Of a DNA stretch of 64,000 nucleotides, positions 3,748-44,893 are shown piece after piece. Numbering within the stretch: the stretch's first letter is position 1; each line of letters begins with the position of its first letter. Position numbers and translations under genes: made by a program. The stretch is from Rhizobiaceae bacterium (GTDB lineage: Bacteria; Pseudomonadota; Alphaproteobacteria; Rhizobiales; Rhizobiaceae): positions 1,655,623 to 1,719,622 of the forward strand of contig JAEPNK010000001.1 of the NCBI GenBank assembly GCA_017643495.1, given 5' to 3'. The notes under the pieces are model-generated. The model saw nothing but the letters and a program-made list of their open reading frames with translations. It made no database searches and was not told the DNA's origin.

Positions 3748-3749
3748 TT

Positions 3750-9124: not shown

Positions 9125-11268
9125 GATGCTGCTCCGAACGTGACTTGCTTGCGTGATCTTCGGTTTTGCAGCCAGGTAATCATCATTGACCGCCACTTGC
9201 CGATCATGCTTTCCCAGCTGGTCGGGTTGTGGATTACATCAGCCCTGTAAAAACTCGGGCAAAGAACGGCAGCATCGGCGACCTCACCACAATTGCCGCA
9301 ACCCACACAGGTCTGGTCAATTGACGCAACGGGATCGTCTCTCAATGGGTCATCCAAATGCTTCAGGGAAAGGGAAGGACAGCCTGAGAGCCGAATACAG
9401 GCATGGTCACCTGTGCAGATATCTTCATCCACGCCAAACCTCGGAGCCTCTACCCGGCGGCCTTCCTTGATGGCCAGATTGCGTTGGGGCTTCTCGCGGC
9501 GTTGACGGTTGAGCATGCATTCAGAAGACGCAACGATCACTTTGGGGCCATCGTAATCCGTGGTGAGCGCTTCACGGACAATGGCAGCCATTTTCGGCAC
9601 ATCATATGTCCGGTCAATCTGGCGGACCCATTTTACGCCAACCCCACGGACAGCATCACTGATCGGGTTGTTGGTAGCCTTGGTCGGATTGTCGGCCCTG
9701 CTTGAAAGCACATCCTGACCGCCAGTTGCAGCCGAATAAAAATTGTCGACGATAACAGCGACACTGTCTGACCGGTTGAAGACCATGTTACCAATCGAAC
9801 TCGACAAGCCGTTATGCCAGAAGCCGCCATCACCCAGAATGGAAATCGCCCGTTTGTCTCCGCCACCGTCAAAGGCTGCGTTTGATGCCGGGCCAAGGCC
9901 ATAACCCATTGTTGCTCCACCGATCTCGAAAGGGGGCAGGGATGCAAAAAGGTGGCATCCGATGTCACCGCTTATCTGGTGCTCACCGAGTTCTTCCTGA
10001 ACAATCTTGATGGCGGCAAAGATTGGGCGCTCGGGACAGCCTGTACAAAATCCCGGCGGTCGAATGGGTACTGTCTCTGATATGTCCGGAATTTGCGGCG
10101 CTTCCTGGTTGGGCGCGCGCACGGCACCAGGTAGTATTTCCGGCATTGTCTTCTTCAAAAAGGCCGTCAACCCGTCCAGCATTACCTGGCCGGTATATTC
10201 ACCTGCCATGGGAAAAACGTCTTTCCCGGAAAGACGCGTTTTCCTGTCGTTTTTGTAAAGCACCGCCCCGATTGCCTGCTCGATGAATTCCGGTTGTCCT
10301 TCTTCGATAATGAGAAGCGAGTCTTTGCCTTCAGAAAACTCCAGAACCTCGGAAGGGATCACGGGATAGGCTACGTTCATGACATAAAGTGGCACCTGGC
10401 TGTTGCCATAAAGGTCGGCAAGCCCCAGGCGCTGCAATGAACGGATAACGCTGTTGTACATCCCTCCCTGCACCACGATCCCTATTGGGTGGTTTTCCGG
10501 CCCAAACGTTTCGTTAAGCTTGTGTTCCCGGATGAATTTTTCAGCGGCAGGCCACCTGTTGTTGATTTTGTCGTGTTCGTGCATGAAGGACATCGGGGGC
10601 AGCACCACGCGATTGAAGTCCTTGCGCGGGCTGCTCAACGCATCATGTGTTGTCAATGCTGGCCGGACATTGTCGGACGTCTCGAATGTACCCGTAACGT
10701 GACATGCGCGTATCCTGACCATCAGCATCACAGGCGTATTGGATGCCTCGGATAATTCAAATCCCTTTTTGACAGAGGCAACGATCGAAGGAAGGTTTGG
10801 CCGGGGGTCAAGCAACCAGAACTGCGATTTCATGGCAAAGGCGTGACTGCGTTCCTGCATAATGGACGAGCCTTCGCCGTAATCTTCACCAACAATGACC
10901 AGCGCACCACCATTCACACCGGAAGAGGCGAGATTGGCCAGTGCATCCGATGCAACATTGACACCAACCGGTCCCTTGAAAGTAACGGCTCCCCGTATCG
11001 GATAATGGACTGAGGCGGCCAGCATGGCCGCTGCGGCGGCTTCGGAAGCATTTGCCTCATAACGAACGCCAAGCTCCGTGAGCAATTCCTCAGCATCAGC
11101 AAGCACGTCCATGAGATGTGATATGGGAGCACCCTGATAGCCACCGACATATCCGACACCGGATTCAAGCAATGCCTTGGTGATCGCCAGAATTCCCTCA
11201 CCGGTAAAGGTTTGTCCTTCGCCCAGCTTGAGATGTTCAACTTCCTTCTTGAATGATCTTTCTGCCAT
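9121..11268 (-). CDS. iorA: Indolepyruvate:ferredoxin oxidoreductase alpha subunit
   Basis: A 715-residue thiamine diphosphate enzyme subunit. An N-terminal pyrimidine-binding domain (GYQGAPISHLMDVL, then YEANASEAAAAAMLAAS) is followed by a TPP-binding domain with GDIGCHLF and ILGDGGFWHNGL. The C terminus is ferredoxin-like with two cysteine groups: CTGDHACIRLSGC and CVGCGNC...CP. It oxidatively decarboxylates aryl pyruvates and reduces ferredoxin in the cytoplasm. It starts 21 bases after the MarR gene and is co-transcribed with it and iorB. The exact 2-oxo acid is not decided by sequence; indolepyruvate or a modified form would fit the tryptophan genes nearby. Confidence 0.88.
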   Translation of the reverse strand: MAERSFKKEVEHLKLGEGQTFTGEGILAITKALLESGVGYVGGYQGAPISHLMDVLADAEELLTELGVRYEANASEAAAAAMLAASVHYPIRGAVTFKGPVGVNVASDALANLASSGVNGGALVIVGEDYGEGSSIMQERSHAFAMKSQFWLLDPRPNLPSIVASVKKGFELSEASNTPVMLMVRIRACHVTGTFETSDNVRPALTTHDALSSPRKDFNRVVLPPMSFMHEHDKINNRWPAAEKFIREHKLNETFGPENHPIGIVVQGGMYNSVIRSLQRLGLADLYGNSQVPLYVMNVAYPVIPSEVLEFSEGKDSLLIIEEGQPEFIEQAIGAVLYKNDRKTRLSGKDVFPMAGEYTGQVMLDGLTAFLKKTMPEILPGAVRAPNQEAPQIPDISETVPIRPPGFCTGCPERPIFAAIKIVQEELGEHQISGDIGCHLFASLPPFEIGGATMGYGLGPASNAAFDGGGDKRAISILGDGGFWHNGLSSSIGNMVFNRSDSVAVIVDNFYSAATGGQDVLSSRADNPTKATNNPISDAVRGVGVKWVRQIDRTYDVPKMAAIVREALTTDYDGPKVIVASSECMLNRQRREKPQRNLAIKEGRRVEAPRFGVDEDICTGDHACIRLSGCPSLSLKHLDDPLRDDPVASIDQTCVGCGNCGEVADAAVLCPSFYRADVIHNPTSWESMIGKWRSMMITWLQNRRSRKQVTFGAAS

Positions 11269-16107: not shown

Positions 16108-16506
16108 TCAGCCTATGTGTGCGGTGGCCTCGATTTCTATCAAGGCTTCGTCTTCAATCAGGTCTGCAACAACGACAACGGCCATGGCAGGAAAATGCCG
16201 CCCCAGTACGTTTCTGTAGGCGGTTCCTACCTCTTTCTGCTTTGCCAGATATTCTTTCTTGTCTTTGATAAACCAGGTCAGGCGTGTGATGTCGGTAACT
16301 GATCCGCCTGCAGCAGTGACAATGTCGGCGATGTTTTGCAGTGTCTGCTCCATTTGGCCGATGAAGTCATGTTTCTCGAAAACCTGCTCCTTGTTCCAGC
16401 CGATTTGGCCGCCAATGTGAAGGGTGCCGTTATCAACGAGAACGCCATTTGCATAACCTTTTGCTGGCGCCCAGCCCTCAGGTTGTATTGTCTTAGCAGT
16501 CATCAT
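16108..16506 (-). CDS. RidA-family protein lacking the catalytic arginine
   Basis: A 132-residue RidA/YjgF-family protein, last gene of the 2-aminobenzoyl-CoA operon; its ATG overlaps the thioesterase stop (TGATG). RidA proteins speed hydrolysis of enamines and imines. Here the PAR motif that supplies the catalytic arginine in RidA reads FPAMAV, so the arginine is absent, while the C-terminal EIEATA segment is kept. The 2-amino-5-oxocyclohexene-type product of the preceding enzyme is an enamine, so hydrolysis of that intermediate is an attractive role, but it would need a chemistry other than the classic arginine mechanism. Confidence 0.8.
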   Translation of the reverse strand: MMTAKTIQPEGWAPAKGYANGVLVDNGTLHIGGQIGWNKEQVFEKHDFIGQMEQTLQNIADIVTAAGGSVTDITRLTWFIKDKKEYLAKQKEVGTAYRNVLGRHFPAMAVVVVADLIEDEALIEIEATAHIG

Positions 16507-16907
16507 CAGCCTTTCATGAACTGTTCTATTTTCGAACGCACGGCATCTGGCCATGCTTCTGGTCGCCCGTCACGATTGACGCATACAAGCGTTGTTGTTG
16601 TTTCAAATCTCAATTCATCATCGCATGTTGCACGCGTGACGATGTCCATACTGGCCTTTCCAAGTTTTGTGGCTTCGATTTGTAATACTAGATGATCACC
16701 GTGCCTGCTCGGTGCCTGGAATTGCGTTGAAATGGCAACGGTCGGAACGCCGTTGGTCTCGTGCATTTTCTCGAAGGGCCAGTCGAGCGCTTCATCAAAG
16801 AAAACTTCAACAGCATCGTTCATCATCTCGAAGTAACGGGGATAGAAAACAATTTTGGCCGGGTCACAATGCTTGAAAAGCACTTTCTGGTGGTATTTGA
16901 AGGTCAT
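16506..16907 (-). CDS. 4-hydroxybenzoyl-CoA thioesterase-family (hotdog) protein
   Basis: A 133-residue hotdog thioesterase with the family core HCDPAKIVFYPRYFEMMNDAVE, whose aspartate is catalytic in 4HBT enzymes. The start at 16907 (MTFKYHQ) gives this core its usual N-terminal position; the open frame has an extra 21 codons upstream without homology. It probably hydrolyses an aromatic or alicyclic CoA thioester of the anthranilate pathway, or relieves CoA sequestration. It sits between the ligase and the RidA-like gene. Confidence 0.82.
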   Translation of the reverse strand: MTFKYHQKVLFKHCDPAKIVFYPRYFEMMNDAVEVFFDEALDWPFEKMHETNGVPTVAISTQFQAPSRHGDHLVLQIEATKLGKASMDIVTRATCDDELRFETTTTLVCVNRDGRPEAWPDAVRSKIEQFMKG

Positions 16908-17021
16908 GTCAGTCCGCTCGGTTGGCGATGTGTTTATCTTGATTTTTGTCTTGGCATGCATAATGGGCATGCAGCGATACAGACATGAAACTTGTTCTGA
17001 GAAACTTCATTATGAATTCCC

Positions 17022-18641
17022 TCAGTGAGTTTTCTTCAGCCGGAAACGCTGGATTTTGCCGCTTTGGGTTTTGGGTAGCGCATCGGTAAAAACTATGCTG
17101 CGCGGGTATTTGTAAGGTGCGATGGTTGCCTTGACATGTGCTTGCAGAGCGGAAACCTGCTCTTGGTCACCATTGGCATTTTCAGCGAGTATTACATGTG
17201 CCTGAACTATGCTGCCCCGCTCCTCATCCGGAATGCCGATCACCGCGCATTCGACGACGTCAGGATGCGAAAGGAGGGCAGCTTCAACTTCAGGGCCAGC
17301 AATATTATAGCCGGATGAAACGATGATATCGTCATTGCGTGCTGCAAAATGAAAATAACCGTCTTCGTCACACCAGAAGGTATCTCCTGTTATGTTCCAT
17401 CCATTCTGGACATACTCAGTCTGGCGTTCTCCGCGCAGATAGCGGCAACCGGTTGGGCCTTTAACGGCAAGCCGGCCCATTTCACCCGTTTTGGCAGTGT
17501 TTCCATCGGCATCGAGAATTGCTGCTTCATAGCCGGCCACAGGTTTTCCGGTGCAGGAAGGGCGGTGGTCGTCAAACCGGTTGGTAATGAAAATGTGCAG
17601 CAGCTCTGTTGCCCCGATACCGTCCAGCATGGGTTTACCGGTTTTTTCTTTCCATTCCTCGTAGACAGGACCGGGAAGCGTTTCTCCGGCGGAAACGGCT
17701 GCACGCAGTGAGGAGAGATCTGCTCCCTTATCCATTGCCCTCATCATTGCCCTGTAGGCTGTGGGCGCTGTGAAGCAAACCGTTGCCTTGTATTTTTCAA
17801 TGATCTCGATCAGGTTTGGTGGTGAGGCATTCTCCAGCAAGGTGGCTGTAGCTCCGAAACGCAATGGAAACACTGCAAGGCCACCAAGCCCGAATGTGAA
17901 TGCAAGGGGAGGTGAGCCCACAAAAACATCTTCGGGTATGACGTTCAGCACTTCCTTTGCGTATCCGTCTGCAATGATCAGTATATCGCGATGGAAATGC
18001 ATTGTTGCTTTCGGGTCTCCCGTGGACCCTGATGTGAAGCCGAGAAGGGCTACATCATCCTGGGAAGTTGGGACTGCCTCGAATTTGACAGGTTTTTCAA
18101 GAGCAAGCTGGTCCAGCTCTGCATCATGATTGGATGTGCCATCGAAACCGACAATGCGCTTGAGAAATGGGCTGTTATCAAGACACGGCTCCATCTCGTC
18201 CATGAGCCTGGTATCACATAGTGCAAACTCGATTTCAGCCTTGTCGATATATTTCATCAGTTCCGGAGTGCGCAGCATCGGCATGGTGTTCACCACGACG
18301 GCACCTGCCTTGGTTGCCGCAAGCCAACATGCAACCATTGCAGGATTATTGGCACTACGGATCAGTACGCGACTGCCGGGGCGCACCCCGATTTCATCTA
18401 CAAGCACATTTGCCAGACGGTTCGTCCAGTCCGTCAATTCCTTGTACGTACGTTGGCGGCCATTGCCTATGAGCGCTGTATGGTCGCCAAAACCCTTGGC
18501 AACCATTGCGTCGGTCAATTCCACACCAGCATTCAGTTTGTCGGGGTAGTTGAAGCCATCAAGCACCAGATCAGGCCATGTGTCTTCTGCTGGCAGGTTG
18601 TCCCTTGCAAAACTGTCCTCATGTGCACTTGGGTAAAGCAT
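17022..18641 (-). CDS. 2-aminobenzoate (anthranilate)-CoA ligase
   Basis: A 539-residue acyl-adenylate ligase of the benzoate/2-aminobenzoate-CoA ligase group. It has the phosphate loop FTSGSTGDPKATMHF (about residues 205-219), the hinge-region segment FHFAARNDDIIVSSGYNIAGPEVE and the C-terminal catalytic lysine in KTQSGKIQRFRL. The start at 18641 (MLYPSAHED) follows AAGGGGA. It activates anthranilate to 2-aminobenzoyl-CoA with ATP. Assignment to anthranilate and not benzoate rests on the monooxygenase/reductase fusion in the same operon and the kynureninase gene nearby. Confidence 0.82.
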   Translation of the reverse strand: MLYPSAHEDSFARDNLPAEDTWPDLVLDGFNYPDKLNAGVELTDAMVAKGFGDHTALIGNGRQRTYKELTDWTNRLANVLVDEIGVRPGSRVLIRSANNPAMVACWLAATKAGAVVVNTMPMLRTPELMKYIDKAEIEFALCDTRLMDEMEPCLDNSPFLKRIVGFDGTSNHDAELDQLALEKPVKFEAVPTSQDDVALLGFTSGSTGDPKATMHFHRDILIIADGYAKEVLNVIPEDVFVGSPPLAFTFGLGGLAVFPLRFGATATLLENASPPNLIEIIEKYKATVCFTAPTAYRAMMRAMDKGADLSSLRAAVSAGETLPGPVYEEWKEKTGKPMLDGIGATELLHIFITNRFDDHRPSCTGKPVAGYEAAILDADGNTAKTGEMGRLAVKGPTGCRYLRGERQTEYVQNGWNITGDTFWCDEDGYFHFAARNDDIIVSSGYNIAGPEVEAALLSHPDVVECAVIGIPDEERGSIVQAHVILAENANGDQEQVSALQAHVKATIAPYKYPRSIVFTDALPKTQSGKIQRFRLKKTH

Positions 18642-18651
18642 CCCGTTCCCC

Positions 18652-19803
18652 TTAAACCTGTAAAGCGCCAAGTGTTTGGCGTGCGATAATCACTTTCTGG
18701 ACATCCGAAGCACCTTCATAGATGCGTAATGCCCTGATCTCCCGGTAAAGCGACTCCACGATTTCTCCCGACCGGACGCCATCTCCTCCATGTAGCTGAA
18801 CGGCCTTGTCGATGATTTTCTGGGCCTGGTCTGTGGCAAAAAGCTTCGCCATGGCTGCCTCGCGGGTAATGCGGGGGGCTCCACTGTCTTTCGTCCAGGC
18901 AGCACGATAAATGAGCAAGGCAGCGGCATCGATATCCAAAGCCATGTCTGCAATATGGCCTTGTACCATTTGCAAATCGAACAAGGGCGATCCCTGTACG
19001 TGTCTGGTGGTGACCCGTTTCAGTGCTTCGTCCAGGGCCCGCCGGGCAAAGCCCAGGGCTGCTGCACCGACTGTTGAGCGGAATACATCAAGCACCGACA
19101 TTGCTATTTTGAAACCTTCGCCCGGTTTTCCGATCATGGACGATGCCGGTATGCGGCAGTTCTCGAACCGTAGGGTCGCAAGCGGGTGGGGTGCTATCGT
19201 TTCCAGACGTTCGCTGATTTCAAAACCGTCAAGATTGGCGGGAAGGATAAAGGCCGAAAGGCCTTTGGCGCCCGGAGCCTCACCTGTTCTTGCAAACAGT
19301 GTGTATACGTCAGCAATGCCGCCATTTGATATCCATGTCTTCTCGCCATTCAGCACATAGTGCTCGCCGTCGCGTGTGGCAGTCATTGTGGAGTTGGCGA
19401 CATCAGAGCCTGACTGCGGTTCAGTCAGGGCAAATGCGGAGATGGCTTTTCCCGACCGTGTCTTGGTCAGCCATTCCTGTTTTTGTTCATCTGTTCCGAA
19501 AAGGGATATCGCCCCGGTGCCCAATCCCTGCATGGCAAAGGAGAAATCGGCAAGCCCGTCGTGCCGCGCCAGCGTCTCCCGAATGATGCAGAGGCTGCGC
19601 ACATCAAGCGTACCATCTATCGTGCTGCTGTGTTCCAGAAAACCTGTCTCACCCAGGGCAGAGACGAGCTTCCTGCAAAGTGCATCTGTATCAGAATGGT
19701 CAAGTTGGTTTAGGTTCGCGCTCGACCATTCTTCCAGCTTGTCTGCAAGTATCCGGTGCCGTTCTTCGAAAAATGGCCAGTCCAGGAAGCTTCTGTCAGC
19801 CAT
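18652..19803 (-). CDS. Acyl-CoA dehydrogenase of the anthranilate operon
   Basis: A 383-residue acyl-CoA dehydrogenase with both FAD signatures (FALTEPQSGSDVANS, and the C-terminal QLHGGDGVRSGEIVESLYREIRALRIYEGASDVQK). The glutamate in IYEGAS is the usual catalytic base position. It would desaturate an alicyclic or ring-opened CoA thioester in the lower 2-aminobenzoyl-CoA route, passing electrons to ETF. Its start overlaps the upstream hydratase stop by one base (TAATG). An acyl-CoA dehydrogenase also occurs in described anthranilate-CoA clusters; its exact substrate is not settled here. Confidence 0.85.
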   Translation of the reverse strand: MADRSFLDWPFFEERHRILADKLEEWSSANLNQLDHSDTDALCRKLVSALGETGFLEHSSTIDGTLDVRSLCIIRETLARHDGLADFSFAMQGLGTGAISLFGTDEQKQEWLTKTRSGKAISAFALTEPQSGSDVANSTMTATRDGEHYVLNGEKTWISNGGIADVYTLFARTGEAPGAKGLSAFILPANLDGFEISERLETIAPHPLATLRFENCRIPASSMIGKPGEGFKIAMSVLDVFRSTVGAAALGFARRALDEALKRVTTRHVQGSPLFDLQMVQGHIADMALDIDAAALLIYRAAWTKDSGAPRITREAAMAKLFATDQAQKIIDKAVQLHGGDGVRSGEIVESLYREIRALRIYEGASDVQKVIIARQTLGALQV

Positions 19804-20603
19804 TAGTCACCCTCGAAAACAGGTTTGTCTTTCGCCACGAAGGCATCATAGGCCCGCTTGAAATCCTTGCCTTGCATGCAAATCGCCTGGGCTTGAGCCT
19901 CGGCTTCAATCGCTTGGTCAAGGGACATGGACCATTCCTGGTTAAGCATGGTCTTGGTCATGGAGTTTGCAAAGGCTGGCCCGGAAGCAATTCGTCCGGC
20001 AATTTCCATCGCGTTGGCATCGAGTTCAGCAGATTCCGTCACGCGGTTGAAAAAACCCCATTGCAGGCCTTCGTCCGCACTCATGGATCTCCCGAGATAG
20101 AGCAACTCGTTCGCACGTCCTTGTCCGATAATTCTTGGAAGTATTGCACATGCTCCCATGTCACATCCGGCCAGACCAACCCGGTTGAAGAGAAAGGCAA
20201 CCTTGGTATCTGGTGTTGCGATCCGCATGTCGGAGGCCATCGCGATAATTGCACCTGCACCAGCGCATATACCTTCTACGGCAGCAATGATGGGCTTCCC
20301 GCAATTGATCATCGCCTTTACCAGATCACCGGTCATCCGCGTAAAGCGCAGAAGCTCCTTCATGTTCATTTTCGTGAGCGGCCCGATAATGTCATGTACA
20401 TCACCACCTGAACTGAAGTTTCCCCCATTTGGAAGGAATACAACAGCCTTCACGTCATCGTCGTAGTGGAGTTCCCGAAACCAGTCCCGCAATTCTGCAT
20501 AGGAATCAAAGGTGAGCGGGTTTTTGCGATCCGGCCTGTCGAGGCTGATACGGGCAATTGCTCCGTCAATCTCACACTTGAAGTGTTTTACATCACTGCG
20601 CAT
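19803..20603 (-). CDS. Enoyl-CoA hydratase/isomerase-family protein of the anthranilate operon
   Basis: A 266-residue crotonase-fold protein. The oxyanion-hole segments are NFSSGGD and [16 protein letters not shown]; a later [15 protein letters not shown] segment holds acidic residues in place of the usual glutamate. The start at 20603 overlaps the MarR stop by 11 bases and has GGGAG upstream. It could hydrate, isomerise or hydrolytically cleave the 1,4-dioxo ring product. It is translated just before the acyl-CoA dehydrogenase. Specific reaction unproven. Confidence 0.82.
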
Positions 20604-21081
20604 CGATTTGTGCTCCCTTCTCTTCAAGATGGTCGGTTATTCCCTCGAGAATTCGGCAGAATGCGTCGATATCCTCCGGTTTCTGGCTTTCGAACATCTC
20701 GTCAAGCCATTGTTCGTGGGCTTCGGCCTGACTTGCAAATGCCTTTTCGCCAGAGGGCGTAAGGCGAACAAGTTGCGCCCGCCGGTCTTCCGGTACAGCA
20801 ACCCGCAACACAAAACCATCCTGGGTCAGCCGGTCCACGATGCCGGTTACATTGCCGTTTGAGACTTTCAACAGGCTGGAAATCTCGCTCATTTTCAAGC
20901 CGTCCGGAAACCGGGAGAGGGCCGACATCACATCGAAACGCGGGAGGGTCGATCCGAACTGGTCTCTCAGTCTTCGCCTGATTTCACCCTCGATTGCATT
21001 CTGGGTTTTCAGCAACCTTAGCCAAAGTCGCAGCCGCATTTTTGACAGTCGCTCACGGGGTGAGTTTGTTTGTGTCTTCAT
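20593..21081 (-). CDS. MarR-family regulator of the 2-aminobenzoyl-CoA operon
   Basis: A 162-residue MarR protein with the winged helix [47 protein letters not shown]. The start at 21081 overlaps the SDR stop (ATGA) and has an ideal GGAGGAG site, so the start is secure. Being embedded in the catabolic operon, it probably responds to 2-aminobenzoyl-CoA or a later intermediate, as other MarR proteins of aryl-CoA pathways do. The TTCAAGCTTGAA palindromes at three promoters are the best candidate binding sites. Confidence 0.85.
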
Positions 21082-21818
21082 ATTTCTCCTCCGGAGATGC
21101 TGAGTGCGTGTCCGTTGACGGAGCGGGCAGCATCGCTGGCCAACCATAGCGCAGTTTGGGCAACTTCATCGGTCTGGATAAATCTGTCCTGTGGATTTCC
21201 TGTTCGCAGTGATTTGGCAGCCGCCTCACGATCCATGCCGGTTTTGGACATGATGTTCTCGATTGACCTTTCCAGGAGCGGGGTTTCGATAAAACCGGGA
21301 CAGATGGAATTGACAGTAATTCCCGTCGAGGCCAGTTCGATCGCAAGTGCTTTGGTCATGCCAACAACACCGTGTTTGGCCGCGCAATAGGCCGATACAT
21401 AGGGAAACCCCTTGAGACCGGCTGTTGATGCAATTGCGATCATTCTTCCCCAGCCGGACTTCTTCATGTCCGGCAGTGCTGCCTGCCATGTATTGAAGAC
21501 ACCAACCAGATTGACAGAAAGCATGCTCTCCAGTTGGTCTGAAGACATTCGTGAAAACGGTACGCTTTCGGCAGCCCCAGCATTTGCAACAACGATGTCA
21601 ATTTGTCCCTGGTCTTTGCGTGCAGCGTCAAATGCCGTGTGCACGGCATCGCTGTCGGTAACATCACACACTTGATACGGCGCGTCTTGGGCTTTCAGGG
21701 AGGCTTCGGTTCTCCCCAAAATGGTGACCTTTGCACCGGCAGAAGCAAACAACCGGGCAATTTCTGCTCCGACACCTGATCCGCCACCAGAAATGACGGC
21801 ATGTTTGTCTTTAACCAT
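21078..21818 (-). CDS. SDR-family dehydrogenase of the anthranilate operon
   Basis: A 246-residue classical short-chain dehydrogenase. The cofactor loop is SGGGSGVGAEIA near the N terminus, NAGAAES follows, and the catalytic YxxxK is in YVSAYCAAKHG. Likely a 3-hydroxyacyl-CoA dehydrogenase, or a reductase acting on the ring ketone, in the lower 2-aminobenzoyl-CoA pathway. Its ATG overlaps the monooxygenase stop (TGATG), marking strong translational coupling. Confidence 0.84.
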   Translation of the reverse strand: MVKDKHAVISGGGSGVGAEIARLFASAGAKVTILGRTEASLKAQDAPYQVCDVTDSDAVHTAFDAARKDQGQIDIVVANAGAAESVPFSRMSSDQLESMLSVNLVGVFNTWQAALPDMKKSGWGRMIAIASTAGLKGFPYVSAYCAAKHGVVGMTKALAIELASTGITVNSICPGFIETPLLERSIENIMSKTGMDREAAAKSLRTGNPQDRFIQTDEVAQTALWLASDAARSVNGHALSISGGEI

Positions 21819-24112
21819 CAGACTTTTTCCATTTCTGCTTCCCGGTCAGCAAGACGCCACATCTGGTCACGCCCGGCAAGATAGGGCAGGGGCCAGTCAT
21901 TTGCGTTCCTGTCACCAATTTTTGAGCCTTCGTGCAATGTCCAGTACGGATTTGAAAGGTGTGGCCTGCCAACGGCAACCAGATCAGCCCGTCCGGCCAT
22001 CAGTATGGAGTTGGCATGGTCTGCCTCGTAAATATTGCCGACGGCCATGGTCGTCAGACGAGCCTCGTTCCGGATCTGGTCAGAAAACGGTGTCTGGAAC
22101 ATCCTGCCATAGACCGGCTTCGCATCGACGGTGGTCTGTCCGGCGGAAACATCAATGAGATCAGCACCAGCTTCCCGGAAAAGCCTTGCAATTTCTACAG
22201 CTTCGTCCGGCGTAACGCCCTCGTCCCCAACCCAGTCATTGGCTGAGATACGGACTGACATCGGCTTTGCTTCTGGCCATGCTTCCCGCATCGCCTTGAA
22301 TACTTCAAGTGGCCAGCGCATGCGGTTTTCCAGGCTCCCGCCATATTCATCCGACCGCGTGTTGGAGACAGGGGAAATGAATGATGAGAGCAGATAGCCA
22401 TGGGCAGCATGCAATTCAATCATGTCAAACCCGGCCCGTTCAGCCATTTGTGCGGACGCAACGAACTGTTCCTTGATCTCATCCATTTCTGTGCGGGTAA
22501 TTTCACGCGGGGTGTCATTTTGGTCTGACCACGGAATGGAAGAGGCAGACACGATATCCCAATTGCCGTCAACGAGTGGTTGGTCCATGCCCTCCCAGCC
22601 AATACGTGTTGATCCCTTGCGGCCTGAATGGCCGATCTGGCAACAAATCCTGGCACTTGTGTTTTCGTGAATGAAATCTGTGATGCGTTTCCAGGCTACT
22701 TCATGTTCGGCAGTGTAAAGGCCTGGACATCCCGGAGTGATGCGCCCCTCTGCACTGACACAGGTCATTTCCACGTAGACCAGACCCGCCCCGCCTTTCG
22801 CCCGTTCTCCATAATGTACCAGATGCCAGTCTGTAGGGGAGCCATCGACAGCCTTGTACTGGGCCATCGGCGACACAACGATGCGGTTTTTCAATTCCAT
22901 TTCCCGCAGTTTGAACGGAGTAAACATCGGCGCACGGACCGGCTCACTCTCGGGCACACCTGCCTTGTTCATGAACCATCGCTCAGCAGATTCGAGCCAT
23001 TTTGCATCGCGCTCACGCAGGTTTTCATGGCTGATCCTTTGTGACCGGGTCAGCATGGAATAGTTCAACTGGACCGGATCAAGGTCCAGATATCGTTCAA
23101 CTTGCTCAAACCATTCAAGTGAATTCCGGGCAGCAGATTGGAGACGCAACACTTCCAGGCGGCGTTCATCCTCGTATTTCTGGAGTGCGCCTTCAAAGCT
23201 TGTCTCGCTGTGAAGGTAGTCTGCCAAGGCTATGGCTGATTCAAGCGCCAGTTTCGTGCCCGAGCCAATCGAGAAATGTGCGGTCGCAGCTGCATCGCCA
23301 AGCAATACGACGTTTTCGTGACTCCATTTTTCACAAAGCACACGGGGGAACTTGATCCAGGCGGAGCCGCGAATGTGTTTTGCGTTGGTCATCAGCGAAT
23401 GACCATCAAGATGATCCTTGAAAATTTCTTCGCAGAGGCGAATGCTTTCTTCCTGGCTCATGTTTTCGAAACCGAAAGCCTCGTATGTCGCTTGCGAGCA
23501 TTCGACAATAAAGGTCGCTGTATCTTCATCAAACTGGTAGGCATGGACCCATATCCAGCCATGTTCGGTTTCTTCAAAGATGAAGGTGAATGCATCAGCA
23601 AAGGTTTGGTGTGTTCCGAGCCAAACAAACTGGCACAGGCGTTGTTCCACGTTTGGCTTGAACGTGTCTTCATACAACATGCGGGTTCTTGAATTCAGCC
23701 CGTCAGATGCAACAACCAGATCATAATCCTTGCGGTAATCCTCGGCGCTGTTGACCTCTGTTTCAAACAGCAGGTTTACACCCAGTTCGCGAGCCCTTTC
23801 CTGTAGCAGGATCAGGAGTTTCTTCCTGCCGATGCCACAGAACCCGTGTCCCGAGGATACAAGCCGTTCTCCCTTGTAATGCAGTGCGATATCATCCCAA
23901 TAGGCAAAATTGCTGCCGATCGCATCAGCGCTGACGGGGTCGTTATTGCGCAAGTTGTCGAGCGTTTCATCAGACAGGACTACTCCCCAACCGAAGGTGT
24001 CGTCAGGTTTGTTGCGTTCAATAACCGTGACATCATGCGAAGGATCCCGAAGTTTCATCGAGATTGCAAAATACAGCCCCCCAGGACCACCACCCAAACA
24101 TGCTATTCGCAT
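21818..24112 (-). CDS. 2-aminobenzoyl-CoA monooxygenase/reductase fusion
   Basis: A 764-residue fusion. About residues 1-370 are a flavoprotein hydroxylase with [13 protein letters not shown] at the start and [16 protein letters not shown] for FAD. About residues 390-764 are an old yellow enzyme domain ([36 protein letters not shown]). This matches the enzyme of Azoarcus evansii that hydroxylates and then reduces 2-aminobenzoyl-CoA to 2-amino-5-oxocyclohex-1-ene-carboxyl-CoA. Salicylyl-CoA 5-hydroxylases share the layout, but the ligase and kyn genes favour anthranilate. The start at 24112 follows GAGGAG; an in-frame ATG 17 codons upstream is possible. It leads the operon ending at 16108. Confidence 0.84.
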
Positions 24113-24168
24113 CGAAGACTCCTCGAATTTGCCAGTCTGGTTCAAATCTGACATAGCCAGCACATTAT

Positions 24169-24221: not shown

Positions 24222-25556
24222 TTATCGCCTGGCATCCCGAACAGCTTTTACACGGTCCTGGTTTGCCTTCAGCTCTGCGTCAAATGGATGGTCTTTTGCG
24301 CGCTCGAGTGTTTGAAACGAACCGTCTGTTGATGCCCACCAGCTGGATGGTTTTATCTGGTCATGCAATCGCAACCGGTCATCCATTTTGAGCGCAAGCT
24401 TTCGAAGCGGGGTGCCCAGCAGGAAGCGCAGAATTTTGCTCCAGCGTTTGGAGTAATCCTTGTTGTATGGGCAAGTGCGAATACAGTTTGCACAATCAGT
24501 GCCGCGGGATACCCAGAACTTGAAGCACTTCTCGCCGTCCGTGGTCCATTTCTTGATGCCCCGTATATTGGAACGGTTAAACGTATAGGTACTGGGAGGG
24601 CCGTGGTCGATTGCTTGGGGAGGGCAGTTGTTTGCGCAGCGCCTGCAAATCTCACAGGTTTCCTCTACTCCAAAAGCAATCGGCTTGTCATGAGCCAGCG
24701 GCATGTCGGTGAGTATCCGGCCAAACCTTACACGAGGGCCGTAATTCCGGGTAATGCATAACCCGTTGCGGCCATACTCACCCAGCCCGGCCTGAATGGC
24801 ATATGGAACAGCAAGGTTTGTATCATTCTGCGTTGCTATGGCCTGATAACCAAGGCTTCGGATATATTGTGCCAGTGCCAGCAAGGTGATTGCATCTTCG
24901 GCGTAGCCTGCTGCCGGTCCGGTACTGGCCGTCGCCGAAGGCGACATCCGGATGATGTCGAACTCCATGGCCTTGCCCAAAACGATGACATTGCAGATTT
25001 CATCGGGGATATCGACCGGTTTTGAAGAGCGGGTTCTGGCGCTGAATTTGGACTTGTAGGTCCATCGCGGATCATATGCGGTAATCCCGACAAGATCAGC
25101 TCCGTAAAGCTTGCCCACTTTCTTTATGCGGCCCGCTGCCTCTTGTGGCGACTTTATCTCAACCGGTTCCACCCTTGGAGGAATGTGAGGCGTGAAGTCA
25201 TCGGTGAAGCCGTCTCGCCGGTCATTTGCTTTTTGCATCTCGGCAAACATTTCCGTCACCACCCAGGGGCCGTTGCGAAGGGCAAAGTCCTCTTGGGAAA
25301 AGCCTTCCTCGTCCCTTGTTCGCTCAGTGGGCTTAACGAAGGAGCGGAAAAACTTCATGGTCATGCGATTGGCAAATTTGGAATCCCAGAAACCTCGGCT
25401 GAACATGTCGTTGGGCTGGTTGAAGGCTTCATAGTCTGGCGTGATACGGATGTGTTTTGAAATGCCGAATTGTTCATCATCAACCGGCGCGGTCGCGGAG
25501 TGTGAAAACACGCTTTTCTGCAAGTCTTCTCTGCTCTGGTGGTTCCGTTTTTCCAT
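24222..25556 (-). CDS. Cytoplasmic reductive dehalogenase (RdhA)-like corrinoid/Fe-S protein
   Basis: A 444-residue protein. The start at 25556 (MEKRNHQ) follows GGGAGG. An N-terminal stretch of about 130 residues precedes the superfamily core: YDPRWTY at 161-167, QAGLGEYGRNGLCITRNYGPRV at 255-276, and two 4Fe-4S motifs with reductive dehalogenase spacing: C301-x2-C304-x2-C307-x3-CP and C344-x10-C355-x2-C358-x3-CP. No Tat signal and no fused reductase domain, so it needs an external electron donor. It is divergent from glutaryl-CoA dehydrogenase and ends 109 bases before the anthranilate operon. RdhA enzymes remove halide from aromatics with cobalamin. Dehalogenation here is inferred. Confidence 0.78.
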   Translation of the reverse strand: MEKRNHQSREDLQKSVFSHSATAPVDDEQFGISKHIRITPDYEAFNQPNDMFSRGFWDSKFANRMTMKFFRSFVKPTERTRDEEGFSQEDFALRNGPWVVTEMFAEMQKANDRRDGFTDDFTPHIPPRVEPVEIKSPQEAAGRIKKVGKLYGADLVGITAYDPRWTYKSKFSARTRSSKPVDIPDEICNVIVLGKAMEFDIIRMSPSATASTGPAAGYAEDAITLLALAQYIRSLGYQAIATQNDTNLAVPYAIQAGLGEYGRNGLCITRNYGPRVRFGRILTDMPLAHDKPIAFGVEETCEICRRCANNCPPQAIDHGPPSTYTFNRSNIRGIKKWTTDGEKCFKFWVSRGTDCANCIRTCPYNKDYSKRWSKILRFLLGTPLRKLALKMDDRLRLHDQIKPSSWWASTDGSFQTLERAKDHPFDAELKANQDRVKAVRDARR

Positions 25557-25670: not shown

Positions 25671-25722
25671 GCATATTGTGTTTGCTTTTATCACTTGCTC
25701 CAAATTCATAGGAGGCAAGAAC

Positions 25723-26964
25723 ATGGTGAACCCAGCCAGTAACAACGAGTTATCCCGGCAAACCCCCGAGATAGCCAGGGCAAAACCAGCATCGCTGAAG
25801 TGGGAAGATCCGTTCCTTCTGGACAATCAGCTTTCGGATGAAGAGCGTATGATTCGTGATTCTGCAGCTGCCTATTGTCAGGACAAGCTGTTGTGCCGCG
25901 TTGTGGAAGCAAATCGTGACCAGGTGTTTCATCGGGAAATCATGAATGAAATGGGGGAGCTTGGCATGCTGGGTGTCACCATCCCCGAAGAGTTCGGGGG
26001 CGTTGGTGCAAACTATGTCAGCTATGGTTTGGTTGCACGTGAAGTCGAGCGTGTCGACTCCGGGTATCGTTCGGCAATGTCGGTTCAGTCCAGCCTGGTC
26101 ATGCACCCGATTTTTGCATACGGAACGGATGAACAGCGTGAAAAATATCTTCCAAAGCTTGCCAGCGGTGAATGGGTCGGCTGTTTCGGGTTGACCGAAC
26201 CTGACCATGGCTCTGACCCGGGCGGCATGGTTACTCGCGCAAAACCGGTTGATGGCGGTTATCTGTTGTCAGGAGCCAAAAACTGGATCACCAACAGCCC
26301 GATTGCAGATGTTTTCGTGGTCTGGGCCAAGTCAGAAACACATGACAACAAGATTAAGGGTTTCGTGCTGGAGAAAGGCATGAAGGGTCTGAATGCACCC
26401 AAGATTGACGGCAAGTTCAGTCTCAGGGCTTCAACCACCGGCATGATACAGATGGATGAAGTCTTCGTTCCTGAAGAAAACCTCCTGCCCAACGTGTCTG
26501 GTCTGGCTGGTCCGTTTGGTTGTCTCAACCGGGCGAGATACGGTATTTCATGGGGGGCGATGGGCGCTGCGGAAGCCTGTTGGCATGCTGCGCGTGAGTA
26601 TACCATGGACCGCAAACAGTTCGGAAAGCCCCTGGCTGCTACACAGCTGGTTCAGAAAAAACTGGCGGATATGCAGACGGAAATCAGCCTTGGATTGCTT
26701 GGTGCACTGCGTCTGGGCCGCATGTTTGATGATCATTCAGCGCCAGCGGAACTGATCAGCCTGATGAAACGCAACAATTGCGGCAAGGCGCTATCCATTG
26801 CACGTGAAGCACGTGACATGCATGGAGGAAACGGCATTTCTGATGAATATGGTGTCATCCGTCATGTGATGAATCTGGAAGCCGTTAATACTTATGAGGG
26901 TACTCACGATGTGCACGCCCTTATTCTAGGCCGGGGCCAGACGGGCATGCAGGCATTTCAATAA
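25723..26964 (+). CDS. gcdH: Glutaryl-CoA dehydrogenase
   Basis: A 413-residue acyl-CoA dehydrogenase-fold flavoprotein. The GcdH signature is strong: [15 protein letters not shown] for FAD/substrate binding and the C-terminal [21 protein letters not shown] with the catalytic glutamate. It oxidises and decarboxylates glutaryl-CoA to crotonyl-CoA. The start at 25723 follows GGAGG; a TTG 19 codons upstream is less likely. Placed with the kyn genes and the anthranilate-CoA operon, it is the natural exit step if ring cleavage leads to glutaryl-CoA. It has its own promoter with both shared operators. Confidence 0.92.
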
Positions 26965-27083: not shown

Positions 27084-27890
27084 ATGTATGACTGGGATGA
27101 TGCCTATTCCAATTCAGCCTATATACCGGGATCTGAAACCCTGCCCGATGAATGGGCTGCAAAAGCTCATGCGTATCGTTGCAGCGCAATTACTGTAGAA
27201 GAGGATCTGGAATACGGATCTGCTTCCCGCGAAAAGCTCGATATCGTCTGGCCGGACCAGGAGCCGTGTGGCCTGGCCGTTTTTGTACATGGCGGTTACT
27301 GGATGAGCATGGACAAGTCCTTTTGGACCCACTTTGCCGAAGGAGCACGTTCAAGCGGCTGGGCTGTTTGTATTCCGGGTTACACGATTGCTCCTGAAGC
27401 AAGAATCCATGAGATGACAGGGCAGGTAGGTCGTGCAATCGGGTTTGCTGCGCAACGAGTAAAAGGGCCTGTGCGAATAGCCGGACATTCTGCAGGCGGC
27501 CATTTGGTAAGTCGCATGGCATGCGCGGATACCCCACTTGATGCCAGTGTTCGCAATCGTCTGGAGCATGTGCTCTCGATCAGTGGCTTGCATGATTTGC
27601 GACCCATCATGTCGACCTCCATGAACAAGGTGCTATGCCTGGATGAGGCGGAAGCAAGGAAAGAAAGTCCGGCTTTGTTGCGTCCACGAAAGGGGGTACG
27701 GCTGACTGCGTGGGTGGGGGGCGCGGAGCGACCTGAGTTTTTGCGGCAGGCAAGGTTGTTGGAAATGATGTGGCAAGGGTTTGAAGCCAGCGTGTCGGCC
27801 GTCAGTGACGCGCATCACAACCATTTCTCGGTGCTGGAAGGTTTGTTCAATGCCGACAGTGCCATCACACACAGATTTATAAAAGGATAA
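27084..27890 (+). CDS. Kynurenine formamidase, alpha/beta-hydrolase type
   Basis: A 268-residue alpha/beta hydrolase with FVHGGYWMSMDKSFW (the HGG oxyanion motif at about residue 70) and the nucleophile elbow AGHSAGGH at about 134. A late histidine in DAHHNHFSVLEG completes the probable triad. This resembles the animal-type arylformamidase and not the metal-dependent KynB cyclase fold commonest in bacteria. It would hydrolyse N-formylkynurenine to kynurenine. It lies upstream of the GntR-kynA-kynU unit, with about 60 bases to that unit's promoter and a 119-base gap after gcdH. Confidence 0.82.
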   Translation: MYDWDDAYSNSAYIPGSETLPDEWAAKAHAYRCSAITVEEDLEYGSASREKLDIVWPDQEPCGLAVFVHGGYWMSMDKSFWTHFAEGARSSGWAVCIPGYTIAPEARIHEMTGQVGRAIGFAAQRVKGPVRIAGHSAGGHLVSRMACADTPLDASVRNRLEHVLSISGLHDLRPIMSTSMNKVLCLDEAEARKESPALLRPRKGVRLTAWVGGAERPEFLRQARLLEMMWQGFEASVSAVSDAHHNHFSVLEGLFNADSAITHRFIKG

Positions 27891-27951: not shown

Positions 27952-28758
27952 ATGTATCCAAAGCCGAAGACGGAAGATCTGTATCAGAAAGTCAGGAATG
28001 ATATCCTCAGACTTGAGCTTTCGCCGGGTGAAGCATTGCGACTGCCGGCGCTCTCCGACCGGTATCAGGTAGGTCAGACCCCGCTTCGGGAATGTCTTAA
28101 TCGCCTGTGTGGTGACGGTTTGGCAACAGTCGAACACAACAAGGGGTTTCGGGTTTCCGAATTGTCTCTTCCTGAAATACTCGAACTGGAAAACGCCCGG
28201 GCGGTAATCGAAGGAACACTGTTCAGTCGGGCTGTTTCATCCGGGGATGAAGGTTGGGAACGTGACGTTGCCGGGGCTTTCCACATGTTGCTTAGAAGCC
28301 CTGCTCCATCGGTGTTCTCGGCTGCCGAAGATATCAATGTCTGGGCACGGCGTCATAACGAGTTCCACGAAACCCTGATCAATGTCCGAAAGGAAAACGG
28401 CTGGTTGGTCCGCTTCCGAAAAATGCTTGGAGAGCAATTGCAGCGTTATCATCTCTTTATTCAACTGGGGCTGCAAAAAATCGGTAATGCAAATCCTGAA
28501 AATGCGCGGCATGCTGCCGAAGTTTTCAGTGCTGCAATGGCCCACGAACCCCATCAACAGCTTTATGAAATTGCCCTGTCGGGAGATGCAGATGAGGCAT
28601 TGAAAGTGTTCGAACAGCACTCACGTCTTTCTTCGCGTGCGTTTTCAAGTCTTGCCTCGTTTTCAGAAGAGACAGACTTTTTTGCGCTGGATGTTTCTTC
28701 CCAATTGGCAACGCAGTCAGCACAAGAGATGGAGGCCCTTGATGACCGGCACATATGA
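27952..28758 (+). CDS. GntR-family (FCD-domain) regulator of tryptophan catabolism
   Basis: A 268-residue regulator: a winged helix near the N terminus (YQKVRNDILRLELSPGEALRLPALSDRYQVGQTPLRECLNRL) and an all-helical ligand-binding FCD domain after about residue 80. The ATG at 27952 has AAGGAA upstream; an in-frame TTG six codons earlier is less likely. It overlaps kynA by 17 bases in another frame, so expression is coupled. It probably senses tryptophan, kynurenine or anthranilate and binds the 27-base palindrome at 27893-27919. Confidence 0.85.
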   Translation: MYPKPKTEDLYQKVRNDILRLELSPGEALRLPALSDRYQVGQTPLRECLNRLCGDGLATVEHNKGFRVSELSLPEILELENARAVIEGTLFSRAVSSGDEGWERDVAGAFHMLLRSPAPSVFSAAEDINVWARRHNEFHETLINVRKENGWLVRFRKMLGEQLQRYHLFIQLGLQKIGNANPENARHAAEVFSAAMAHEPHQQLYEIALSGDADEALKVFEQHSRLSSRAFSSLASFSEETDFFALDVSSQLATQSAQEMEALDDRHI

Positions 28759-29575
28759 TCCTTCTGCAGATGGTGCAAAAATGTCATTTGAAAAGGATAT
28801 GAGCTATTCCGATTATCTGTCGCTGGATCCCATTCTGCACAGTCAGAACCGGTTGACCGGTGCGCATGATGAAATGCTGTTTATCGTGCAGCATCAGACT
28901 TCCGAATTGTGGATGAGGCTTGCTTTGCATGAACTTGGTTCTGCCCGGCAATGCCTCAAAGAGCGGAAGTTTCAACCTGCTTTCAAAATGATTACTCGTG
29001 TTGCACGAATACTTGAGCAGTTGAACAATGCCTGGGATGTCCTGCGAACAATGACGCCAAGCGAGTACACCGAATTTCGCAATGCGCTTGGCGCATCATC
29101 AGGCTTCCAGTCACACCAGTATCGCAAGATGGAATACATGCTCGGCAACCGGAACGTCGCCATGATGAAGGTGCACGAACACCGCAAGGAACTTCATGAT
29201 GAGTTGTTGGCAGAACTTGAAAAACCTTCCCTGTATCATGTCGCTCTTGACTGTTTGTCCGGGGAGCTGGGCATAACCTTTGGTAGTGATATTTTTCGCA
29301 AGCGTGAGCCCCATCAATCTGACCAGACGGTTATTGATGCGTGGGCAGTCATCTATCAGGACCCGGCCCGCTTCTGGTCACTGTATGAACTTGCTGAAAA
29401 ACTGGTCGACATGGAAGACTATTTCCGCCGTTGGCGTTTCAACCACGTTACAACCGTTGAGCGGATAATCGGCTTCAAGCGGGGTACGGGTGGCACAAGT
29501 GGTGTCCAGTATTTGCGGAAGATGCTGGAAGTCGAACTGTTTCCGGAACTCTGGGCTGTAAGAGGAGTTCTCTGA
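28742..29575 (+). CDS. kynA: Tryptophan 2,3-dioxygenase
   Basis: A 277-residue haem dioxygenase with the family signature FIVQHQTSELWMRLALHEL, which holds the substrate-contacting histidine, and SGFQSHQYRKMEYMLGNRN further on. It opens the pyrrole ring of L-tryptophan to give N-formylkynurenine in the cytoplasm. The ATG at 28742 lies inside the end of the GntR gene and has GGAGG seven bases upstream, which settles the start. kynU follows with an ATGA overlap. Confidence 0.93.
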   Translation: MTGTYDPSADGAKMSFEKDMSYSDYLSLDPILHSQNRLTGAHDEMLFIVQHQTSELWMRLALHELGSARQCLKERKFQPAFKMITRVARILEQLNNAWDVLRTMTPSEYTEFRNALGASSGFQSHQYRKMEYMLGNRNVAMMKVHEHRKELHDELLAELEKPSLYHVALDCLSGELGITFGSDIFRKREPHQSDQTVIDAWAVIYQDPARFWSLYELAEKLVDMEDYFRRWRFNHVTTVERIIGFKRGTGGTSGVQYLRKMLEVELFPELWAVRGVL

Positions 29576-30774
29576 TGAGCAAGACAGCGATACTTCCACG
29601 CAAGGACCTTTTCCACTTGCCGGATGGACTGATTTATCTTGACGGAAATTCACTTGGCCCACTTCCAAGATCAGCAAGCGAACGGGTTGCAAAAACCGTT
29701 TCATCAGAATGGGGTGATCATCTGATAACCGGCTGGAATGTGGATGGCTGGATGGAGCAGCCTTCAAGAATTGGCAACCGGATTGCAAAACTTGTAGGCG
29801 CATCAGACGCGACAGTCGTGCTCGGAGATACCCTTTCAATAAAGGTCTACCAAGCGCTTTCATCAGCACTTTCGATGAAGCCGGATCGCAAGGTAATACT
29901 CTCGGATACCGGTAATTTTCCAACCGATTTGTACATGGCTCAAGGGTTGGTAAGTCAATTGTCGGATGGGCATGAATTGAAACTTTGCGAGCCTGAAAAT
30001 GTACTGGAAGCCATCGATGAGAATGTAGCAGTCGTGATGTTGACCCATGTCGATTACCGTACCGGACGGATGCATGACATGGAAACCATTACAAGGGCTG
30101 CTCACCGGGCGGGGGCTGTCATGATATGGGATCTGGCACATAGCGCCGGTGCAGTTCCTGTAAACCTTGAAGCTGTAGGGTGTGAGTTTGCAGTAGGTTG
30201 CACTTACAAATATCTGAATGGGGGACCGGGCGCTCCAGCCTTCATCTACATAAGAAAAGACCTTGCAGACGATGTTCGCCCGGCATTGTGTGGCTGGCTA
30301 GGCCATGATTCGCCATTTGCTTTTGAGCAGAGCTATCGTCCGGCAAAGGCGATTGAACGAATGAGGGTTGGGACGCCACCAGTCCTTCAGATGGCGGCGC
30401 TTGATGCCGCGCTTGATGCTTGGGACGGTGTGTCGATGGATGACATCCGTGCCGCCAGTGTGGAATTGTGTGAGCTTTTCATCAATGAGGCTGGGAGGCG
30501 ATGCCCGCAATTGCAATTGGCCAGCCCCCGGAAAAGTGAGTTGCGCGGTTCACAGGTCTCATTTGCATTCGAAGAAGGCTATGCCGTCATACAGGCACTT
30601 GTCGCTCGCAAGGTTATCGGTGACTTCCGTGCGCCTGATCTGATGAGATTTGGCTTTACACCGCTTTATATAGATCGCGAGGATGTGTTGAAAGCATGTG
30701 ATATCCTGGAGGAGATCATGCGGGACAAGATATGGGATGAGGAAAAATACAAGAAGAAGCAGGCAGTTACCTGA
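29575..30774 (+). CDS. kynU: Kynureninase
   Basis: A 399-residue PLP enzyme of fold type I. Landmarks are YLDGNSLGPLP at 21-31, D186 and H189 in MIWDLAHSAGAVP, and the PLP lysine K212 in GCTYKYLNGGPGAP. It cleaves kynurenine to anthranilate and alanine. With kynA and the formamidase it delivers anthranilate to the CoA ligase operon on the other strand about 6-13 kb away. Length and motifs are typical. Confidence 0.94.
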   Translation: MSKTAILPRKDLFHLPDGLIYLDGNSLGPLPRSASERVAKTVSSEWGDHLITGWNVDGWMEQPSRIGNRIAKLVGASDATVVLGDTLSIKVYQALSSALSMKPDRKVILSDTGNFPTDLYMAQGLVSQLSDGHELKLCEPENVLEAIDENVAVVMLTHVDYRTGRMHDMETITRAAHRAGAVMIWDLAHSAGAVPVNLEAVGCEFAVGCTYKYLNGGPGAPAFIYIRKDLADDVRPALCGWLGHDSPFAFEQSYRPAKAIERMRVGTPPVLQMAALDAALDAWDGVSMDDIRAASVELCELFINEAGRRCPQLQLASPRKSELRGSQVSFAFEEGYAVIQALVARKVIGDFRAPDLMRFGFTPLYIDREDVLKACDILEEIMRDKIWDEEKYKKKQAVT

Positions 30775-43896: not shown

Positions 43897-43925
43897 TTGA
43901 CAGAATTTATATGATTTTTCATATT
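43897..43925 (+). promoter_or_regulatory. Promoter of the Rieske dioxygenase operon
   Basis: Consensus -35 TTGACA at 43897-43902 and -10-like CATATT at 43920-43925, spacer 17 bases. The second MarR-type palindrome fills the spacer and the -10. It lies before the preferred TTG start at 43944 and overlaps the alternative ATG at 43911, which argues against that ATG. Confidence 0.6.
43909..43924. promoter_or_regulatory. MarR operator, core site
   Basis: ATATGA-TTTT-TCATAT, perfect 6-base arms, centred 29 bases from the upstream site centre and covering the -10 region of the dioxygenase promoter. Confidence 0.65.
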
Positions 43926-43943
43926 AATTGGGTGGAGGGACCA

Positions 43944-44879
43944 TTGACCAGATTTGTGATTGTAGAAAAATCAGAGCTGACAGACAGGATCACCAGCTTT
44001 GTTCTGAAACCGGAAGACGGTTCTGCGCTGCCTGCTTGGACTGCAGGTGCCCATATTGACCTGGAGCTTGGTAACCCGGGGGCGAGATCATATTCTCTTA
44101 TCGAATGGCCTGGTGACACTTCTGATGTTTACCGAATTGCAGTTCAGCGCGAGCCTGAGGGGGATGGTGGCAGCATTGCTGTTCATGAACTGTCTGCTGG
44201 TGATGTAATTGAAGTCTCCGAACCGAAAAACAGTTTTGAACTGGTTGACGGAGATGAGCCTGTTGCCCTGATCGCCGGAGGAATAGGCGTGACGCCGCTG
44301 ATCTCCATGGCAACGCGGCTTTCAGCATCGGGCAGGCCCTTTTCTTTTCATTATACAGGACGCTCTGCTGGCGTAATGGCGTGTCGTGAAAGGCTGGGTG
44401 AAAGCTTCAGCGATCAACTCACCTGTTATTTCGACGATCAGGCCCCCATTGATCTGCACCAGACAGTGGAACAGATAAGGGACCACAGGCTTTATGTCTG
44501 CGGACCCAAGGGCATGATTGAAGCGGTTCGCAGTGCTGCGGAGGCGGCTGGAATTCCTTCAGACAAGGTGCATGTTGAACTGTTTACAAGTGCGGCACCC
44601 GTTGAAGGGGACAAACCGTTTGAGGTGGAAGTAAGCTCCAGTGGGGATGTGTTCACCATCCCGCCGGGAAGAACAATCATAGAAGTGCTCGAAGAAAACG
44701 GCGTTGATCTGATGTATGATTGTCAGCGTGGTGATTGTGGAATTTGCCAGACAGATGTTCTTGAAGGCGTGCCTGATCACCGTGATGTCGTGTTGAGTGA
44801 GGCAGAAAAGGAAAGCGGTAAAGTCATGCAGATTTGTGTGAGCCGGGCTCTTTCAGAACGCCTGGTGCTTGATCTGTAA
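43944..44879 (+). CDS. Dioxygenase reductase, phthalate dioxygenase reductase/VanB type
   Basis: A 311-residue flavoprotein: flavin domain (RSYSLIEWPG at about residues 50-60), NAD domain (ALIAGGIGVTPLISMA) and C-terminal plant-type 2Fe-2S ferredoxin (YDCQRGDCGIC, then MQICVS). It passes electrons from NADH to the Rieske oxygenase next door. A TTG at 43944 after GGAGG is the preferred start; the ATG 11 codons earlier lies within the promoter and operator. The ferredoxin being C-terminal places it in the PDR group, unlike the benzoate or anthranilate dioxygenase reductases, where it is N-terminal. Confidence 0.88.
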   Translation: MTRFVIVEKSELTDRITSFVLKPEDGSALPAWTAGAHIDLELGNPGARSYSLIEWPGDTSDVYRIAVQREPEGDGGSIAVHELSAGDVIEVSEPKNSFELVDGDEPVALIAGGIGVTPLISMATRLSASGRPFSFHYTGRSAGVMACRERLGESFSDQLTCYFDDQAPIDLHQTVEQIRDHRLYVCGPKGMIEAVRSAAEAAGIPSDKVHVELFTSAAPVEGDKPFEVEVSSSGDVFTIPPGRTIIEVLEENGVDLMYDCQRGDCGICQTDVLEGVPDHRDVVLSEAEKESGKVMQICVSRALSERLVLDL

Positions 44880-44893
44880 ACAGGGAGGCCGGA

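Follow-up and report, generated by a model that had tools for sequence, protein, structure and literature searches.

A short RdhA-type reductive dehalogenase homologue at the head of a predicted 2-aminobenzoyl-CoA operon in a Rhizobiaceae bacterium

The RdhA gene and its neighbourhood

The window, a 64,000-nucleotide stretch of a Rhizobiaceae genome, carries at positions 24222–25556 a gene for a 444-residue homologue of RdhA-type reductive dehalogenases, encoded on the minus strand at the coordinates proposed in an earlier sequence-only reading. Its start codon is backed by a GGGAGG Shine–Dalgarno sequence just 5′ of the ATG, orthologue starts fall in the same region, and an in-frame 5′ extension of the reading frame would run into a divergent gene at 25714. 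The two [4Fe-4S] motifs described in that reading are present as C301-x2-C304-x2-C307-x3-C311-P and C344-x10-C355-x2-C358-x3-C362-P, and its YDPRWTY segment occupies residues 161–167. The curated profile TIGR02486 (reductive dehalogenase) scores 180.8 bits against a cut-off of 160.35, and among solved structures those of PceA match best (E 2.5e-51 and 4.2e-45, or 4e-71 with the family profile as query); at the level of sequence, these matches are not due to chance. Together with the cysteine motifs and the PceA-like fold of the predicted structure described below, the profile score makes the proposed membership of the RdhA family practically certain.

The N-termini of the gene product and its orthologues contain no twin-arginine or hydrophobic stretch, and profile searches detected no fused reductase, including the PDOR reductase domain, in the protein, bearing out its description as a cytoplasmic form lacking a Tat signal and a reductase module. 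No rdhB-type anchor gene adjoins the RdhA gene, nor is there space for one, since only 82 bp separate it from the next gene and approximately 157 bp from the divergent gene. Differences between orthologues lie mostly at third codon positions, so the gene appears to be under purifying selection, with rough dN/dS values because dS is saturated in several orthologue pairs. No cobalamin riboswitch or other Rfam family was found in the 64,000 nucleotides at the gathering threshold.

The RdhA gene heads a compact predicted operon for 2-aminobenzoyl-CoA degradation, being the first of nine same-strand genes that are spaced by 82 bp and thereafter by 51 bp or overlaps. Immediately downstream lies a salicylyl-CoA/2-aminobenzoyl-CoA monooxygenase-reductase of the ABM/ACMR type (21818–24139, minus strand; NF006101, 1319 bits against a cut-off of 1078), followed, all on the minus strand, by a short-chain dehydrogenase (21078–21818), a MarR-family regulator (20593–21147), an enoyl-CoA hydratase family protein (19803–20627; NF006107, 477 bits against 330), an acyl-CoA dehydrogenase (18652–19803) and a ligase of the benzoate/2-aminobenzoate-CoA ligase family (17022–18671; TIGR02262, 353.6 bits, below the cut-off of 375). 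A 4HBT thioesterase (16506–16970) and a RidA-type imine/enamine deaminase (16108–16554) end the operon. Divergently, on the plus strand, lie a glutaryl-CoA dehydrogenase-like acyl-CoA dehydrogenase (25714–26964), an alpha/beta hydrolase that is possibly a kynurenine formamidase, as assigned from context (27084–27890), a tryptophan 2,3-dioxygenase (28724–29575; PF03301, with TIGR03036 at 379 bits, just below its cut-off of 391) and a kynureninase (29575–30774; TIGR01814, 286.7 bits against 246.4).

Predicted structure and comparison with known RdhAs

An AlphaFold2 model of the 444-residue protein, built from 41 sequences (mean pLDDT 86.4, pTM 0.87), matched the PceA structure 8q4h with a Z score of 37.1 over 372 residues at 2.2 Å, S. 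multivorans PceA with Z of about 33, NpRdhA with Z of about 30, where only NpRdhA residues 269–684 were aligned, and QueG with Z of about 14; structural comparison was also performed with Foldseek. The model superposes on cobalamin-binding RdhAs, consistent with the cobalamin pocket expected of a reductive dehalogenase. In the sequence alignment, Tyr218, Asn244, Arg277 and Trp348 correspond to PceA Tyr246, Asn272, Arg305 and Trp376, Asp354 takes the position of PceA Tyr382, and Phe52, Trp57 and Trp98 are likely pocket positions. Of the active-site Tyr/Lys pair that had been put forward for comparison with known dehalogenases, the tyrosine is retained as Tyr218, whereas Lys488 of the catabolic RdhAs is replaced by arginine. 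The catalytic residues are kept in all 41 of 41 relatives; the PceA Tyr/Asn/Arg triad and most of the aromatic pocket are conserved across all relatives examined, and the pocket residues are common to the orthologues, a kynureninase-linked group, the debrominase clade and Chloroflexota relatives. The same PceA residues surround bound bromophenols (PMC5500849). Sequence and predicted structure together establish family membership, both Fe-S motifs, a fold like that of PceA, the Tyr218/Arg277/Asn244 triad and an aromatic pocket.

RdhAs have been divided into four subfamilies, of which two are catabolic, one having a reductase domain and the other lacking it, and the catabolic enzymes bear a vestigial second copy of their B12 domain (PMC10463259). 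NpRdhA, with 704 residues, has this duplicated vestigial domain and no reductase (PMC10463259), and reductase-fused RdhAs such as BhbA comprise about 1,010 residues, so the earlier generalisation that aerobic catabolic RdhAs are about 700 residues long with a fused flavin/ferredoxin module was mistaken. With NpRdhA, BhbA and JtRdhA the 444-residue protein would share a cytoplasmic catabolic role and the same core fold (Z of about 30), but the vestigial duplicated B12 domain of these enzymes is absent from it, as is the reductase domain of BhbA and JtRdhA. Its single-domain build is that of the respiratory RdhAs, minus the Tat signal and the anchor gene. Sulfurospirillum PceA (8q4h) resembles it in fold over residues 16–414 (Z 33–37), in the Tyr/Asn/Arg triad, in the Trp pocket and in the [4Fe-4S] motifs; PceA, however, is Tat-exported, has a membrane partner and carries Tyr382 in place of Asp354. 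QueG belongs to the same superfamily and is a weak match, both by profile (TIGR00276, 43.6 bits against a cut-off of 200) and by fold (Z 14 against 33–37 for PceA).

The closest resemblance in build is to two marine proteins: Ros_A3X954 from Roseobacter sp. MED193, which debrominates 2,6-dibromophenol, and A0A2T7UTL8 from Pararhodobacter aggregans, 72% identical to Ros_A3X954, which deiodinates triiodophenol (PMC13101508); the expression system of that study was E. coli with btuCEDFB. Both, at about 405–414 residues and about 43% identity to the 444-residue protein, are Tat-less, reductase-less single RdhA cores with the same Fe-S motifs and pocket residues, and the 444-residue protein fits this type, which spans about 405–445 residues. 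They differ from it in lacking its C-terminal extension of about 36 residues, in forming a separate clade (100/100), in having other recurrent neighbours and in acting on halophenols. Because Ros_A3X954 and its P. aggregans relative share this build, the architecture is an established one with demonstrated activity. The short, reductase-free, Tat-less form is thus not the novelty it had been taken for, its subfamily having been described (PMC10463259) and its 405–414-residue marine members being active (PMC13101508); it is a known kind of RdhA, and what is new is its genomic setting.

Relatives and their gene contexts

Among 84,980 species genomes scanned, 283 relatives of the alignment turned up, of which the five closest (loci L034–L038, Rhodobacterales-type where named, L036 being from Tateyamaria sp. 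ANG-S1) are 74–78% identical to the window protein, with others at about 50% or less. Together with these five, the window gene makes up a single clade (100/100), apart from the debrominase and kynureninase-linked groups. Its position is with characterised debrominases and not with QueG, and yet outside the group that holds the P. aggregans homologue at locus L071, whose identity with the tested A0A2T7UTL8 was taken from species and motif. The branch leading to the clade is long (1.04), and in a tree with BhbA and PceA as outgroups the outgroup branches are very long and the root is unreliable. Further genomes of the genus, not all of which are complete, gave only QueG-level matches or none to an RdhA query, and few RdhA orthologues occur in the family or the class; the RdhA gene is an accessory gene. 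Viral contigs contained no RdhA relatives, and plasmids contained only distant ones (<60% identity), none over 80% of the query.

At four of the five orthologue loci, a PaaK-like ligase, a gentisate-type cupin dioxygenase and an FAA hydrolase are encoded within 10 kb of the RdhA gene. The ABM gene is present at two of these four, one of which, L038, has the whole 2-aminobenzoyl-CoA cluster, and gene orders differ between loci. A PaaK-like gene at >25% identity occurs at no other relative locus (Fisher 3e-6, a guide only, as the loci are related). No aromatic cluster lies within 10 kb of the L034 orthologue. The debrominase clade has no anthranilate- or gentisate-type neighbours; its recurrent neighbours, identified by inspection, are housekeeping-like. 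The cupin dioxygenase of L035 (2120–3364), found also at L036–L038 with the FAA hydrolase, scores between the gentisate 1,2-dioxygenase and 5-aminosalicylate 1,2-dioxygenase models, below the cut-off of both, and its closest counterpart in the genome of the window is a 35% homologue at another locus.

A second lineage, also of short RdhAs, lies directly before kynureninase at five loci (L045, L047, L050, L052 and L094), with tryptophan 2,3-dioxygenase next after kynureninase at four of them. Further on, these loci usually carry an enoyl-CoA hydratase family gene, an amidase and hydantoinase A/B genes. The five kynureninase-linked RdhAs form one clade (100/98). Common ancestry of the kynurenine linkage in both lineages was considered and rejected, as a joint clade gave an AU p value of 0.00013, which serves as a guide because the grouping was chosen after the contexts had been seen. 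The window clade and the separate kynureninase-linked clade therefore represent two RdhA lineages tied to tryptophan/anthranilate genes. Elsewhere, a short Rhodospirillaceae contig (L044, 2865–10098) holds two RdhA paralogues, between which lie genes for an EamA transporter, a Memo/AMMECR1 protein and a radical SAM protein.

Substrate, electron supply and alternative readings

Our preferred reading, to which we give a probability of roughly 0.5, is that the RdhA is a cytoplasmic catabolic cobalamin/Fe-S reductive dehalogenase for halogenated anthranilate-type acids. That the protein dehalogenates is probable, short Tat-less relatives being active debrominases and deiodinases (PMC13101508), and the genome of the window contains a corrin-synthesis gene. 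The haloanthranilate-type substrate, drawn indirectly from gene context and mainly from the linkage of two lineages to tryptophan/anthranilate genes, stands at even odds at best; a possible (halo)anthranilate link had been raised before, and the operon and orthologue contexts make it plausible. Counting against the preferred reading are the halophenol rather than haloanthranilate substrates of the characterised relatives, the long branch to the clade, the L034 locus, the QueG-level or absent matches in the rest of the genus, and the operon itself, among whose genes neither a halogenase or halide-handling gene nor a ferredoxin, reductase or dedicated redox partner was recognised.

Under the preferred reading, a general ferredoxin or flavodoxin would reduce the core-bound B12 through the two [4Fe-4S] clusters, and Tyr218 would give a proton while the halide departs from the aromatic ring. 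The substrate may be a halogenated anthranilate-type aromatic acid, such as a halosalicylate or a product of bromo- or chlorotryptophan formed by way of kynurenine, and removal of the halogen would clear the ring for the ABM-type enzyme, which hydroxylates C5, and for beta-oxidation-like steps. Anthranilate is degraded via a CoA route in which 5-hydroxyanthraniloyl-CoA forms when NADH is limiting (PMC3534580), and a halogen at C5 would be expected to block that route.

As had been recognised from the sequence, a 444-residue protein without a reductase domain needs electrons from another protein. The earlier suggestion of an IorAB source found no support: some 13 kb separate the RdhA gene from the IorAB-like pair of the window (7562–11268), and a search within 10 kb of the gene in each of the five closest relatives gave no IorAB match. 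The genes around that of NpRdhA pointed to ferredoxin as its electron source, yet reconstitution in vitro failed with the neighbouring proteins and succeeded with spinach ferredoxin and E. coli flavodoxin reductase (PMC10463259). Given this precedent and the lack of a donor gene in the operon, the most likely donor would be a general low-potential carrier. The IorA-like alpha subunit (9121–11268, minus strand) keeps ferredoxin-type cysteines in its C-terminal region with atypical spacing (C618-x5-C624-x5-C630 and C654-x2-C657-x2-C660-x9-C670), so one of its clusters may be altered.

The preferred reading has to be weighed against a catabolic dehalogenase acting on halogenated phenols or hydroxybenzoates generally, for which the anthranilate operon would provide only regulation or location. 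The activities of the short relatives on 2,6-dibromophenol and triiodophenol (PMC13101508) and the identity of pocket residues across clades fit such an enzyme, but the anthranilate/gentisate-type linkage recurs in rearranged orthologue loci and is absent from the debrominase clade, and we regard this alternative as rather unlikely, if the most serious of those considered. A halogenated substrate may also be superfluous: operon position and tryptophan/anthranilate context would suit a B12-dependent, non-dehalogenating reductase acting on a natural intermediate in the breakdown of 2-aminobenzoyl-CoA or kynurenine, for instance by reductive loss of a hydroxyl or amino group, and the long branch of the clade also speaks for it. 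Such an enzyme is improbable in view of the retained Tyr/Arg/Asn dehalogenase triad, of the published 2-aminobenzoyl-CoA route, which requires no such step (PMC3534580), and of the ABM clusters at L153 and L151, which have no such gene within the fetched flank. The single-domain build and the missing Tat signal and anchor gene might suggest that the protein is what is left in the cytoplasm of a respiratory RdhA, with no catalytic role today; this is very improbable, the frame being intact, the catalytic and cluster residues conserved and the orthologues under purifying selection.

Taken more broadly, the preferred reading would place a dedicated B12-dependent reductive dehalogenase step in the aerobic tryptophan–kynurenine–anthranilate pathway of marine bacteria. 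Different RdhA lineages would have supplied this step on two or more occasions, opening halogenated tryptophan or anthranilate as food. We hold this proposal tentatively, with the odds somewhat against it. Halotryptophans and haloanthranilates are made naturally in the sea. In the open literature that we searched, no paper linked reductive dehalogenases with kynureninase, halogenated tryptophan, or tryptophan/anthranilate breakdown. If the proposed substrate is correct, the operon would supply a missing route for the aerobic dehalogenation of halotryptophans and haloanthranilates and would tie bromine cycling in the sea to the ordinary catabolism of amino acids. The defined operon also offers a place to look genetically for the protein that feeds electrons to short cytoplasmic RdhAs.

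The window also encodes P0002 and P0003 (11924–13953, minus strand), tandem Fe-S proteins of the QueG/RdhA superfamily that are about 36% identical to each other. They were rejected as further dehalogenases, having neither the catalytic Tyr nor the Arg/Lys and resembling QueG more closely than RdhA; a structure prediction for P0003, built from six sequences, reached a mean pLDDT of 53.5 and was left unused. The pair occurs in the same order in 11 other genomes from five families (P0003 51–76% identical) and is followed by a PaaK-like CoA ligase at seven of the eight loci with enough flank, the eighth having another AMP ligase. Several pairs adjoin ABM clusters, and at L035 and L036 the pair directly precedes the RdhA orthologue. 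P0002 and P0003 are possibly a new two-component reductase acting on aryl-CoA. Elsewhere in the window, an FAD/2Fe-2S reductase-like protein (43911–46222, plus strand) adjoins the large subunit of a ring-hydroxylating oxygenase, benzoate/anthranilate dioxygenase-like with scores below cut-offs, and with a CoA ligase further on these genes constitute a second aromatic degradation cluster. Genes for a NeuC-like UDP-GlcNAc 2-epimerase and a NeuB-like sialic acid synthase lie at 2596–4790 on the minus strand.
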